From Acidobacteriota bacterium (GTDB lineage: Bacteria > Acidobacteriota > Terriglobia > Terriglobales > Acidobacteriaceae), in assembly GCA_025359885.1 (NCBI GenBank), contig JANYDG010000062.1, positions 1 to 64,000 on the forward strand: a DNA stretch of 64,000 nucleotides, given 5' to 3'. The position numbers and the translations under genes were made by a program. Positions 25,884 to 30,551 of the stretch are shown in pieces (within the stretch, counting starts at the first letter, position 1; each line of letters starts with the position of its first letter). Below the pieces are notes generated by a model. That model searched no databases. It had not been told where the DNA came from and worked only from the letters and a program-made list of their open reading frames with translations.

Positions 25884-28628
25884 TTAGTTATGAGGAGCCC
25901 TGGTGGATGGCGCTGCGGCTTCGTCGGCCCGGCCAGGAGCAAGCGGCGATGGGGTAGCTGAGGAAGATCCGTCGACAGCCGTCGCCGAGCTTCCCGTTGC
26001 AGAGTTGGTTCCCGAGCTGATGGGCAGGGTCAGGGTTTGGATCACGTCCGGATCGTCGCGAAGCCGCACGTAAAGCGTGCCGGTGCTGCCGGACCGAGCC
26101 GGGTTAGCCGCCACGTTCGGCACCGGGAGTGAGGTCCCGGCGAACTCCAGCGGCACCTCGACAGCATTCGACATATCGGGCGTGGCGCTCACGGCAGAGA
26201 TGAGAAAGATGTTGCTGGCCGCGAGCAGACAGGGTTTCGCCAGATTGCGCGGGCAGCGCAGGTCATGATTGCCGCTGAATCCAGGCAGCCGTACCAGCGT
26301 CCCCAGCGGAACCCAATCCCCGGCGACCCCCTCTGCGGTGACGGCTCGCAACTGAAGCGGCCCAAAGGCAGAGTGTCCAAAGCGAGCCAGCGGATCGACG
26401 ACGGCGACGGCGGTATGGGTGTCCTCCAGCATCAGGCTGCCGTCGGCCAGCGAGAGGGTGGTCTGGAAGCTGCCATCGACCGCAGCAATTTCCACCGTCT
26501 CGGTGCGCGCAAAGGCCGCAGGAACCCGCGATCGGAGGAAGAAGACCAGGCGGCGCTGCGACGGCAGATCGTTGGAGGAGCCGAGGTGGATGGGCGGCGG
26601 CGCGATGGAAGCGTCGGTGTCTGCCTCATCGTGCTGCACGCCTTTACTCAGCAAATCTACCTGGGGCCGAGGCGGTCCGACCGTGGCGGGTACGTGCAGA
26701 GTTCGACCATCTCGCAGGGTCACACGGGCGGAATAGTTACTGCCGGGCTGAAGCGTGATCGTGATGCCTGTAGCCGAAACGGCAAGCTGGTCAAAGTCCT
26801 GCACACGGTTCAGCGCGGAGGGGGCAAAGGTGATGCCGGCAAGATCGACCGTCGCCACTTCATCGAGACGCTTGCCGCGCAGTACGGCATCCTTGTCGCC
26901 CGCGCTCAGTGTCAGCCGATCCAGGGCAGCCGCCTCGGCGTAGGCGGTCAGCGGCAGTTCTTCGGGTTTGGCCAGGCCATATTGGCGGATTGCGATTGTG
27001 ACCGTGCCGGGATGCGCGTCCTTGAGCGGGACAGAAATCTCAAGCGCATCAGGACGCGCATCAGGATGGGGCGACTTCCAGGTCAAATGGACCGGGGGGG
27101 ATGGAGCAGCTCCGATGGTGGCGGCGGGCAGCGTGGCCTGCACCTCAGCAACGCAGAGAGAGCTCTCTCCCTGGAGGTGAAGCGTATCTTCTCGACCAGT
27201 AATAAGTGCGTTCTGATCCGACGGAGCAACAGCCCAGCCGCCGGGATGAGGAGCGCGGAGGTGGAATTTGGTGCCTTCCCAGCTATCGAAGCCCCATTTG
27301 CCGCGGATCACGCCGAGCACTTCCGATTCAGGAAAAGCGGGCAGCGGCTTTTCGAGAACGAACCCTCCTGCCGATGGATCGGGACGGATAGGAATATCGA
27401 TGCCGCCTTCGGATGGTGCGACGGTTGCGGCGGCAGGCTGAGTTCCAAGGTTTAGATGGGCGACCTCTGAATTTTCATGTTGGTCAGGGGCTGCTGCCTT
27501 GGTCTCGACATGCAGCGTCAGGTCGTGAGCCAGTGCCGTAGCAAAGACCAGGGGAGCACCCTCGACCGGAAAGGCCAGGCTGGGCTTGGGACCGCAATAG
27601 GTCTGTTGGGGATTCTGGGCAAGATCGGCGGGGTGCAACTGCGGCGTGCGGCTGGGCGCAATGGGAGGCAGGGCGACGACGATCACCGATTTGGGATCGC
27701 GAAAAGACGGCGGCACATTGAGGCGCAGGTTGAGGGTGTCGCGCTGGTCTTTCTGAGGGAGCGCGAGCGCTGGAATGTACTGGTAATGGGCGGTATGAAA
27801 AGTGCTGAGAATACGCGCAAGATCAACCACCGCGCCCACATAGGGGCTGAACTGGCCCGCGCCACCGAGGGTCGAGTAGCTGAGCTGGTTCATCAGGTCA
27901 GCAGTTGAGCCGTTGGCAATCTGTGTCACCAGCGACTGGGCGTTCGCGTCGTCAAGCACCAGGCCGTCGGTGTGCTGCACAAGGCAGGGTGCCTGCTGCT
28001 CGGTAGGCTTGTCAAAGCACTCCTGCTCGACGCGGATGCCGAGGCTGCGAGCGGCGAGGGCGGTGCGCTCCTTGAGCAGCTTGGGGTCTCCATTCGAGGC
28101 GATCTTCACTTCAGCCAGAAAACCGTCCAGGCGGAGCCGATCCCAGCTCGCCTGTTGCAAGTCCTGAGTCGCGCGGACAAAAGCGCCAGGGCGTCCGCGA
28201 ACCGCCGAGCGCAGCGTGCTGAAGTCTCCGCCCGTCTCGGGCGCAAGAAAAAGCAGAGCCTGTTGCGCCTCCGTCGGAACAGTGACGAAAACTCCCTCTT
28301 CGCGGACCACGCGGGTCCACGTCTCCACCCGTGTAAACCATTCCGGCGGCGGCGGGTTGGTCGCGCCCCGCAAAAAGGCAACGATCAGAATGTAGTGGGT
28401 GGACTGGCTTTCGGGCAGATCAGGGTGAATCCAGAGGCGGTCGCCGGGTAGCAGGTTGGGCACCTCGGCGATTGAAAGGGTCTTGCCCTGGCGCTGCACA
28501 TGGACATCGACTTTAGGCCCGGCAAGGTCAAATGCCGGGGCATCAGCAAAGAGTGATACCCCGGCACCGAACAGTATCGGCAGGAAAACGACTAGCGCAA
28601 AGAGCCCTGCTCGAAGTTTCTGAGTCAT
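25884..28628 (-). CDS. Large exported protein of unknown function
   Basis: About 914 residues from the ATG with AGGA five nt upstream; the ORF track adds 27 residues. A signal peptide (GLFALVVFLPILFGAGVSLFA) is followed by long beta-rich, Pro-rich sequence with no motif I can name. Short repeated phrases (LRLNVPPSFRDPKS, VVALPPIAPS, LTLSAGDKDAVLRGKRLDEV) suggest IPT/TIG- or IgSF-like sandwich domains in the second half. The C-terminus is Ser/Thr/Ala/Pro-rich low complexity (about 870-914), as in surface or outer-membrane-tethered proteins. Likely envelope-associated; the role is unknown. Confidence 0.65.
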   Translation of the reverse strand: MTQKLRAGLFALVVFLPILFGAGVSLFADAPAFDLAGPKVDVHVQRQGKTLSIAEVPNLLPGDRLWIHPDLPESQSTHYILIVAFLRGATNPPPPEWFTRVETWTRVVREEGVFVTVPTEAQQALLFLAPETGGDFSTLRSAVRGRPGAFVRATQDLQQASWDRLRLDGFLAEVKIASNGDPKLLKERTALAARSLGIRVEQECFDKPTEQQAPCLVQHTDGLVLDDANAQSLVTQIANGSTADLMNQLSYSTLGGAGQFSPYVGAVVDLARILSTFHTAHYQYIPALALPQKDQRDTLNLRLNVPPSFRDPKSVIVVALPPIAPSRTPQLHPADLAQNPQQTYCGPKPSLAFPVEGAPLVFATALAHDLTLHVETKAAAPDQHENSEVAHLNLGTQPAAATVAPSEGGIDIPIRPDPSAGGFVLEKPLPAFPESEVLGVIRGKWGFDSWEGTKFHLRAPHPGGWAVAPSDQNALITGREDTLHLQGESSLCVAEVQATLPAATIGAAPSPPVHLTWKSPHPDARPDALEISVPLKDAHPGTVTIAIRQYGLAKPEELPLTAYAEAAALDRLTLSAGDKDAVLRGKRLDEVATVDLAGITFAPSALNRVQDFDQLAVSATGITITLQPGSNYSARVTLRDGRTLHVPATVGPPRPQVDLLSKGVQHDEADTDASIAPPPIHLGSSNDLPSQRRLVFFLRSRVPAAFARTETVEIAAVDGSFQTTLSLADGSLMLEDTHTAVAVVDPLARFGHSAFGPLQLRAVTAEGVAGDWVPLGTLVRLPGFSGNHDLRCPRNLAKPCLLAASNIFLISAVSATPDMSNAVEVPLEFAGTSLPVPNVAANPARSGSTGTLYVRLRDDPDVIQTLTLPISSGTNSATGSSATAVDGSSSATPSPLAPGRADEAAAPSTRAPHN

Positions 28629-29355
28629 CGTTCCTGTACTGAGAGAACTGCGCATAGCACTATTGTAGTGATGCGCAGGGGCGATCGTGCGTTGCTTGGG
28701 CAGTCGCAATCCTCACCAACGCCGCAATAATCGGATGATTGCCTTTGAATGAGAGACAAACTGCATTGAACCGGGAATCATAAAGCAATTCTGTAGCATC
28801 AAAAACCTCGAGGACTTTTGTTCGATTAGAGGCTCATTCGAAAAGGTTCTCCTACTGACAAGTTGCACAAGCGAGGGTTCGAAGTAAGATAAAAGTGTCG
28901 GTTCCCCGGCTCGTTTGAGCAACCGGCATTGATTTTCTAATACAGAATAGAGTCGCGCGGGTCACTTGGGTCAGTGAGCGCAATCTCAACCGAATATTCC
29001 AGAGCGACTTTCTGCGAGCGGTAAGCAATATAGAAGTTCCTGGTGGCACGGGCAGTTCAATCGCCTTTGCGGATCATGCCTCAATACCCCGATCTGCGAC
29101 AGAATTTCTATCGTAAGTGCGATCGACAATGCTGGCGGTTCGGGTTGTTCTGATTTGTTCCGGTTGTCCCTTCGTTCCGGTTGATAGAAGAATGGAATCG
29201 CAACAAGTGACCAACAGCAACAACGCTGTGTAGAGGATGAGAAAGCCTACGATTGGCTTGATTCAAGGCGGGAAATGACTCTTATTTCGAACAGTCTCGC
29301 TCCTGACTTTTTGAAGCACTGAAGTGGGTCGAGAGATGGACATATGGAGAGAAAG
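28629..29355. other. 0.7-kb gap without a recognisable gene
   Basis: Short minus-strand ORFs here show no conserved motif or convincing start. Composition is visibly more AT-rich than the flanks. The segment from about 29260 must carry the promoter of the gene at 29356. I see no tRNA, repeat unit or mobile-element terminus. Confidence 0.5.
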
Positions 29356-30105
29356 ATGAAAGCAGTACAGAACGCCCCTATGCACGTAGAAATTGAAGAC
29401 CTCACCATTCCCGACGCGGAAGAGATGATCGAAGAAGCTCTCGGAGAGCTTGCGCATTCCCATGATCCTGGCCTGGTTCGCGCCTTGAGATTTCTCGCGC
29501 CTCCGGGGTATCAGGCGATTGTGGAGCTTTGCGGCGAGAATGGCCGCAGCAAACGTCGCAATGCCAACGCGACGAACTGGACGCCGGAAGAGGACGAAAT
29601 CCGCATCTACTTTGAGCGGATCGACGAAAGTGGAGAGGATGAGGACGAGGACTTCGACTCGACCCCGGCAGCCCGTCCGCGTGCCGTATTCCGTCCTGTC
29701 GTTCCATCCACAGAGGATGGGAACGTAGAGGAAGTCAACGGCGGTTTGCCGGCAGATATCGATGACCGCATCCGGGAATTGTGCGCGACCCTGGCCGAGG
29801 CCGAGCGCGGTGGCCACGCATTCATTGCGCTGAAGTGGTTTCGCGACTCGTTTCTGCCCCGGAAGTCCTTCACCTGGAATCAGAACCCAGAGTCCCGGCA
29901 AATGGTGCTGGCAGAGGCGATTCTGCGCGGAGTGGTGCTAACCAGCAAGATCCCCAATCCCAAGACGCCCGCCTATCCAACCACGACAATCCGGCTCAAT
30001 CGTGCCGAGGCTGGCGTTCCCGAAGAGGCGCAGCGCTTCCGCCCGGTTTCTGTCTGTGGCGAATCGCTTTCAGCCTCCATGGACGATGACCGGGGGAACC
30101 AGTGA
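29356..30105 (+). CDS. Unknown protein coupled to PIN nuclease, candidate antitoxin
   Basis: About 249 residues from the second ATG, which has GGAG six nt upstream. N-terminal ~80 residues are acidic and helical (EDLTIPDAEEMIEEALGELAHSHDPGL), followed by a highly acidic linker (SGEDEDEDFDSTPAARPRA) and a C-terminal ~120-residue helical domain (DIDDRIRELCATLAEAERGGHAFIALKWF...). I recognise no family and no standard antitoxin DNA-binding fold (RHH, AbrB, Phd). It overlaps the next gene by 4 nt (GTGA), the arrangement typical of antitoxin-toxin pairs, but it is much longer than VapB. A role as antitoxin is inferred from position only. Confidence 0.6.
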   Translation: MKAVQNAPMHVEIEDLTIPDAEEMIEEALGELAHSHDPGLVRALRFLAPPGYQAIVELCGENGRSKRRNANATNWTPEEDEIRIYFERIDESGEDEDEDFDSTPAARPRAVFRPVVPSTEDGNVEEVNGGLPADIDDRIRELCATLAEAERGGHAFIALKWFRDSFLPRKSFTWNQNPESRQMVLAEAILRGVVLTSKIPNPKTPAYPTTTIRLNRAEAGVPEEAQRFRPVSVCGESLSASMDDDRGNQ

Positions 30106-30551
30106 GCTGCTACTTCCTCGATGCCACCGCCTTTGTGAAGTTATTTGTGCAGGAGGCCGGAACTGATGCGATTATCCGCCTCATGGAAGCCACAGAAGAC
30201 AATCGCAAGCTCATCTCTGCCGGTACTCCGCTGGAGGTCTACGCGGCCCTGAAACGGCGCGAGCGGGATGGAGGCATTTCGGCGGCCGACGGGGAAGCGG
30301 CGCGCAGTATCCTGCGGGTGGAAGCAGCCCGGATGGTGCAGCAACCGCTCAACCCGGCCGTGCTCGAGGCGGCACGCCAACTGCTGGACCGCCATGAGCT
30401 CCGTTCGCCTGAGGCATTGCAACTGGCAGCGGCGGTCGTCGCTCGCGAAATGTTCCAGGGGATGGAAATCACCTTTGTGAGCGCAGACCCACGTTTGCGT
30501 GAAGCCGCTCGAAAAGAACATTTTCAGGTGTTAAATCCAACCGAATCATAA
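30102..30551 (+). CDS. PIN-domain nuclease (VapC-like)
   Basis: 149-residue single PIN domain. The fold is clear: CYFLDATAFVKLF, then GTPLEVYAALKRRE, RSPEALQLAAAVVA and FVSADPRLREAA. The acidic active-site positions are Asp7, Glu45, Glu104 and Asp129; position 104 is more often Asp in VapC, so the metal site is conservatively altered. VapC toxins cleave RNA and are silenced by a partner encoded upstream; here the upstream gene overlaps the GTG start, implying coupling. Toxin activity versus another RNase role cannot be decided from sequence. Confidence 0.82.
   Translation: MSCYFLDATAFVKLFVQEAGTDAIIRLMEATEDNRKLISAGTPLEVYAALKRRERDGGISAADGEAARSILRVEAARMVQQPLNPAVLEAARQLLDRHELRSPEALQLAAAVVAREMFQGMEITFVSADPRLREAARKEHFQVLNPTES

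Follow-up and report, generated by a model that had tools for sequence, protein, structure and literature searches.

The window, a stretch of 64,000 nucleotides from an Acidobacteriaceae contig whose relatives of the same genus include Acidicapsa dinghuensis (G001), carries a pair of overlapping genes on the forward strand. The first one, called gene A below, is followed by a gene for a VapC-like PIN-domain protein. The features of the pair are as follows.

29356..30105, + strand: gene A, encoding an antitoxin-like protein of 249 aa that forms a new family (open reading frame; 46-row alignment; no library match; median dN/dS 0.16)
29383..29619, + strand: N-terminal domain of A, residues about 10-88, helix-helix-strand-strand, with a basic GRxKR motif (AlphaFold2, pLDDT mostly 65-85 except in the basic loop; motif in all sub-groups)
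29629..29739, + strand: variable disordered linker of A, residues 92-128, acidic in the window protein (pLDDT <50; not conserved)
29755..30015, + strand: winged-helix-like core domain of A, residues about 134-220, with a KWFRD motif (pLDDT 86-95; top Foldseek matches are winged-helix proteins)
30034..30102, + strand: putative C-terminal PIN-binding tail of A, RFRPVSVCGESLSASMDDDRGNQ (matches the C-termini of Phd antitoxins; lost together with the PIN; Arg near the C-terminus at 79/80 loci)
30102..30105, + strand: GTGA start-stop overlap, translational coupling (sequence; identical 4-nt overlap at 79/80 loci)
30102..30551, + strand: PIN-domain protein, VapC-like, 149 aa, with D7, E45, E104 and D129 (PF01850, E=9.9e-9; 80-row alignment; tree)

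The reading frame of gene A extends from an ATG at 29356 to a TGA ending at 30105. An alternative ATG at 29344 would give a longer form. The start at 29356 is retained because its methionine is invariant across 46 homologues and because it is preceded by a conserved ribosome-binding sequence, GGAGA. Beyond this ribosome-binding site, no conserved operator was found upstream of gene A. The PIN gene begins with a GTG at 30102, within the stop of gene A, and ends at 30551, as the initial annotation of the locus had described with the right coordinates and lengths.

No match of gene A was found in Pfam, NCBIfam, PADLOC or the PDB. A standard antitoxin fold, already considered absent in the initial annotation, is rejected on this basis, and no Phd fold is detected in Pfam or NCBIfam at E<=1. 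In the AlphaFold2 model, built from 46 sequences, the N-terminal domain is a new domain and a short tail helix is observed at the C-terminus. The core domain likely belongs to the winged-helix class, an assignment that holds for the class only and not for a family: the best PDB matches of the model given by Foldseek are BLM RQC, PadR and a replication terminator, with probabilities of 0.9-0.99, E-values of at least 0.05 and a TM-score of about 0.5 to the target. The look of this domain had suggested a LOTUS/OST-HTH two-component RNase. This candidate was rejected, as OST-HTH is absent from the Pfam matches of 18 members at E<=1 and from the top 50 Foldseek matches in the PDB. A search of a viral structure library returned generic helix-turn-helix matches only. 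The linker had been described as acidic. This is the case in the window protein (residues about 92-128), where it is predicted to be disordered, but its composition is variable in the relatives. At two loci (L049 and L050, genomes G043 and G041), the PIN-less A proteins have a long linker in which units of the RERE(Y/F) type are repeated.

A search of 84,980 species genomes gave 114 relatives of A. Among the best 80 of these 114, a PIN gene with an open reading frame is located directly downstream of A in all 80 cases, and the two genes overlap by 4 nt at 79 loci and by 8 nt at the remaining one. An antitoxin-position gene located upstream of a PIN-domain gene and overlapping it corresponds to the gene order of VapBC modules, and the Pfam match of the window PIN to PF01850 corresponds to the toxin of such modules. 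The synteny of the pair in other genomes, raised at first as a matter to be checked, is thus conserved. Gene A is present in 106 of the 397 genomes of the order. Distant pairs are found in a second family of the same order and, elsewhere in the phylum, in a further family; they carry the tail and canonical PIN residues, with D-E-N-D in one case. One typical Acidobacteriaceae A-PIN locus (L096) lies on a contig titled Rhodoferax sp. MAG, which is probably mis-binned or mislabelled.

The tail of A and the PIN gene occur together. In a test using an HMM on 120 loci, both were found in 106, and 12 were devoid of PIN, 11 of these being scored as tail-less. Some cases required inspection. In G043, which has no PIN, an HMM reach of 225 suggests a tail but the protein end, PVAGAEEGDETIEA, is not a tail. 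In G006, near a contig edge, no more than about 190 nt follow A, and no tail is seen. L055 (G044), also near a contig edge, was excluded as uninformative. With G043 counted as tail-less and L055 dropped, the 117 informative loci comprise 106 with both elements, 11 with neither and none that is discordant. Homologues of A mostly without a PIN gene, which had been put forward as an argument against the pair, are therefore not what is observed, the PIN being adjacent in 106 of 117. It should be kept in mind that the 11 tail-less loci represent only about four independent events, since losses are seen in about four lineages, namely an Acidicapsa sub-clade of seven genomes, G107, G041/G043 and G044. 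In the Acidicapsa sub-clade, which belongs to the genus of the window (L038-L044), A is found at its usual locus without PIN and without tail. That this sub-clade dropped the PIN and the tail together yet kept A supports the idea that A would be the core function of the locus.

The tail corresponds to the last 21-23 residues of A and follows the pattern F-x-P-V-x-x-x-G-E-x-x-S-x-x-h-x-x-[DE]-R. It is found on three scaffolds: A itself, an unrelated protein of 113 aa (L056, G032) and several classic Phd-type antitoxins, which precede VapC relatives in neighbouring genomes. An ungapped profile derived from the A tails was applied, using 2000 shuffles as a control. Six of 18 Phd-type antitoxins score above all 2000 shuffles, at 0-3 residues from the C-terminal end, and so does the C-terminus of the L056 partner. 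With this ungapped profile, the 12 other Phd-type tails are weak or not significant, three of them having p about 0.01. By this profile match to six of the 18, A has the C-terminal toxin-binding tail typical of Phd/YefM antitoxins. In VapBC11, a conserved antitoxin residue, Arg62, forms salt bridges with Asp5, Glu44 and Asp116, the acids of the VapC active site (PMC6265470). The match to Phd tails, the joint loss of tail and PIN, the VapBC11 precedent and the presence of the Arg near the A C-terminus at 79 of 80 loci strongly suggest that the A tail would bind the PIN. Judged by its sequences, the system resembles VapBC, its usual tail being carried by a new scaffold, because the tail matches Phd C-termini and co-occurs with the PIN without any discordant locus. 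The proposal that the antitoxin, if the pair is a toxin-antitoxin system, is of a new type stands as far as the scaffold is concerned; it does not extend to the tail, for which a match exists in the end of Phd-type antitoxins that binds the toxin.

At the G032 locus (L056:8891-9745), an A-type PIN (E-E-D-D) is located behind the short unrelated protein, of 113-133 aa depending on start choice, which carries the A-type tail. In the tree, this PIN is nested within the A-linked PIN clade. The locus corresponds to an apparent scaffold swap and would provide a further candidate antitoxin family. An antitoxin tail may thus behave as a transferable part, and it may help to find antitoxins that are missed by fold-based libraries.

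These features may be compared with those of known systems. As in type II VapBC modules, the locus has a PIN domain, an upstream antitoxin gene, a gene overlap and a C-terminal tail whose Arg is presumed to enter the active site. Unlike them, the scaffold of A is not RHH, AbrB or Phd, the site of the clade is not D-E-D-D/N, and the distribution is core rather than patchy. With the Phd/YefM antitoxins paired with VapC, A shares a C-terminal tail of the toxin-binding type (PhxhxGxxhSxxhxxERR), but it lacks the Phd fold, is longer (249 aa versus 76-98) and has the new N-terminal domain and the winged-helix-like domain. Finally, COG2442 (DUF433) antitoxins fused to a winged HTH have been described, for example Rv2018, which adjoins the PIN protein Rv2019 (PMC2701414). 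There too, a winged-helix protein is the presumed antitoxin of a PIN protein. However, A has no DUF433 match at E<=1, its tail is another one and its domain order is different.

The distribution of gene A is contrasted. It is found in 15 of 15 genomes of the window's genus and in 41 of 42 good genomes of another genus (g9) that includes, by inference from named loci, Terracidiphilus- and Occallatibacter-like genomes. In contrast, it is patchy in a further genus (g40), where 4 of 47 good genomes have it; of four A-linked loci analysed in that genus, G107 is without PIN and the other three have a D-E-D-D PIN. No plasmid-borne gene A was found. The dN/dS ratios, with medians of 0.16 for A, about 0.19 for the PIN overall and 0.16 for the 12 PINs that have only two acids left, show purifying selection on both genes, which are therefore not decaying.

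The active sites of VapC toxins are composed of D, E, D and D/N (PMC7180214). In the window PIN, the four residues are D-E-E-D. The site departs from the VapC pattern at position 3 only and the four acids are kept, so that this protein may be active and could cleave RNA. Because it does not conform to D-E-D-D/N, it is classified here as a variant probably derived from VapBC rather than as a member of the VapBC systems. Glu at residue 104, where Asp is usual, had been correctly noticed. It is not a lone oddity but one piece of a remodelling of the active site that affects the whole clade. With N allowed at sites 3 and 4, canonical sites are found in 0 of 83 PINs of the window's Acidobacteriaceae clade, versus 14 of 23 other A-linked PINs and 9 of 9 Phd-linked VapCs; the difference between the clade and the other A-linked PINs (Fisher p=8e-12) has to be read with the tree, as the test ignores shared ancestry. 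In this tree, the A-linked PINs form one group (98/96), apart from the Phd-linked VapCs, and the altered clade groups inside them (98/98), the long branches making the deeper joins unsure. Among the 83 clade PINs, E-E-D-S is observed in 39 and E-E-E-S in 14. All 83 have acids at sites 1 and 2, which could reflect either the salt bridge with the Arg of the tail or metal binding that persists. Twelve of the 80 aligned PINs have S, Q, A or G at site 3, and 12 of 80, on several branches of the tree, have two acids only. The alterations would often be past plausible two-metal catalysis. The 23 other A-linked PINs are D-E-D-D (13), E-E-D-D (8), D-E-N-D (1) and E-E-E-N (1), the nine Phd-linked VapCs read D-E-D-D or D-E-N-D without exception, and a standard VapC of Acidicapsa dinghuensis (G001b) retains its acids. 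Some patchy relatives likewise have E instead of D at site 1, so that this change taken alone does not signal domestication. What distinguishes the clade is that site 4 is lost and that site 3 has loosened. Profile searches for PDB relatives of the PIN gave insignificant GntR matches only.

Considering these data, we favour, with a probability of about 0.6, the view that the locus is a domesticated VapBC-like toxin-antitoxin module, in which the PIN, with weak catalytic activity or none, would now serve mainly as the partner of a winged-helix regulator. The ancestor would have been a type II VapBC-like module, the antitoxin combining a winged-helix-type scaffold with a Phd-type tail and the PIN being an RNase. 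The overlapping genes would be co-translated, and the tail of A would bind the active-site groove of the PIN, where the conserved Arg would lie opposite the acids. In the lineage of the window (Acidicapsa, Terracidiphilus, Occallatibacter and relatives within the Acidobacteriaceae), the module would have been domesticated: its place is fixed, it is near-universal and under purifying selection, and its PIN site is remodelled, probably often past catalysis. At present, the pair would act as a complex resembling a transcription regulator, where the winged helix of A would be the nucleic-acid-binding part and the PIN a structural partner. Against domestication, it may be objected that the window PIN keeps its four acids and that the constant acids of sites 1 and 2 (83/83) and the stable E-E-D-S pattern possibly correspond to a retuned enzyme. 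The Foldseek E-values behind the winged-helix class, the lack of a conserved operator upstream of A and the 12 Phd-type tails with weak or insignificant profile scores also count against this view.

The idea may be carried further, and we would give even odds to the following picture. Within a bacterial family, the module would have become fixed as a core regulatory complex with a pseudonuclease toxin; the tail, movable between unrelated scaffolds, would be kept to hold the dead toxin, and one sub-lineage would have shed toxin and tail jointly, leaving the regulator alone. The present family bears on the fate of chromosomal toxin-antitoxin modules that are no longer selfish. It would show all stages: modules that are patchy and have D-E-D-D sites, others that are near-universal and have altered sites, and regulators devoid of both tail and PIN.

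Other explanations have to be weighed against domestication. The pair could be a functional toxin-antitoxin system of the VapBC type whose antitoxin has a new scaffold; the PIN would be an RNase, the tail of A would neutralise it and A would repress the operon. The gene order, the coupling, the likeness of the tail to Phd antitoxins, the D-E-D-D PINs of relatives and the window PIN itself, with its four acids and its single departure at position 3, argue for such a system. We nevertheless consider it unlikely in view of the lack of canonical sites in the 83 clade PINs, of the 12 of 80 reduced to two acids, of a core, syntenic distribution that differs from the patchy one of the D-E-D-D relatives, and of the lack of any plasmid match. 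Alternatively, the PIN could be retuned and still catalytic, with a three-acid E-E-D site and Ser at site 4, in a housekeeping two-component RNase guided by A. The constant acids at sites 1 and 2 (83/83), the recurrence of E-E-D-S (39/83) and purifying selection would fit such an enzyme. Against it, 12 of 80 PINs, on several branches of the tree, have S, Q, A or G in place of the acid of site 3, and the A core is separable from the PIN, as in the sub-clade of the window's genus that has A without PIN and without tail; this second alternative appears quite improbable. Of the working toxin-antitoxin system and the working two-component RNase between which the initial annotation hesitated, the remodelling of the site points away from both in most of the lineage. 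Finally, the view of the PIN as a mere passenger of gene A, decaying and heading for loss without retained function, would account for the degeneration of the site and the missing PIN in the Acidicapsa sub-clade, G107, G041/G043 and G044, but is very hard to reconcile with dN/dS values of about 0.19 overall and 0.16 in the two-acid PINs, and with 80 of 80 open frames in which the overlap is kept.

In the window, a divergently transcribed gene (25884-28709, - strand) encodes a protein of 941 aa, which has no match in Pfam and whose N-terminal part contains a hydrophobic segment. This divergent gene adjoins A at 75 of 80 loci and is also found at the PIN-less Acidicapsa loci, most of which have dinB on the other side of A, as in the window. 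It is possible that this neighbour is a regulatory target of A.
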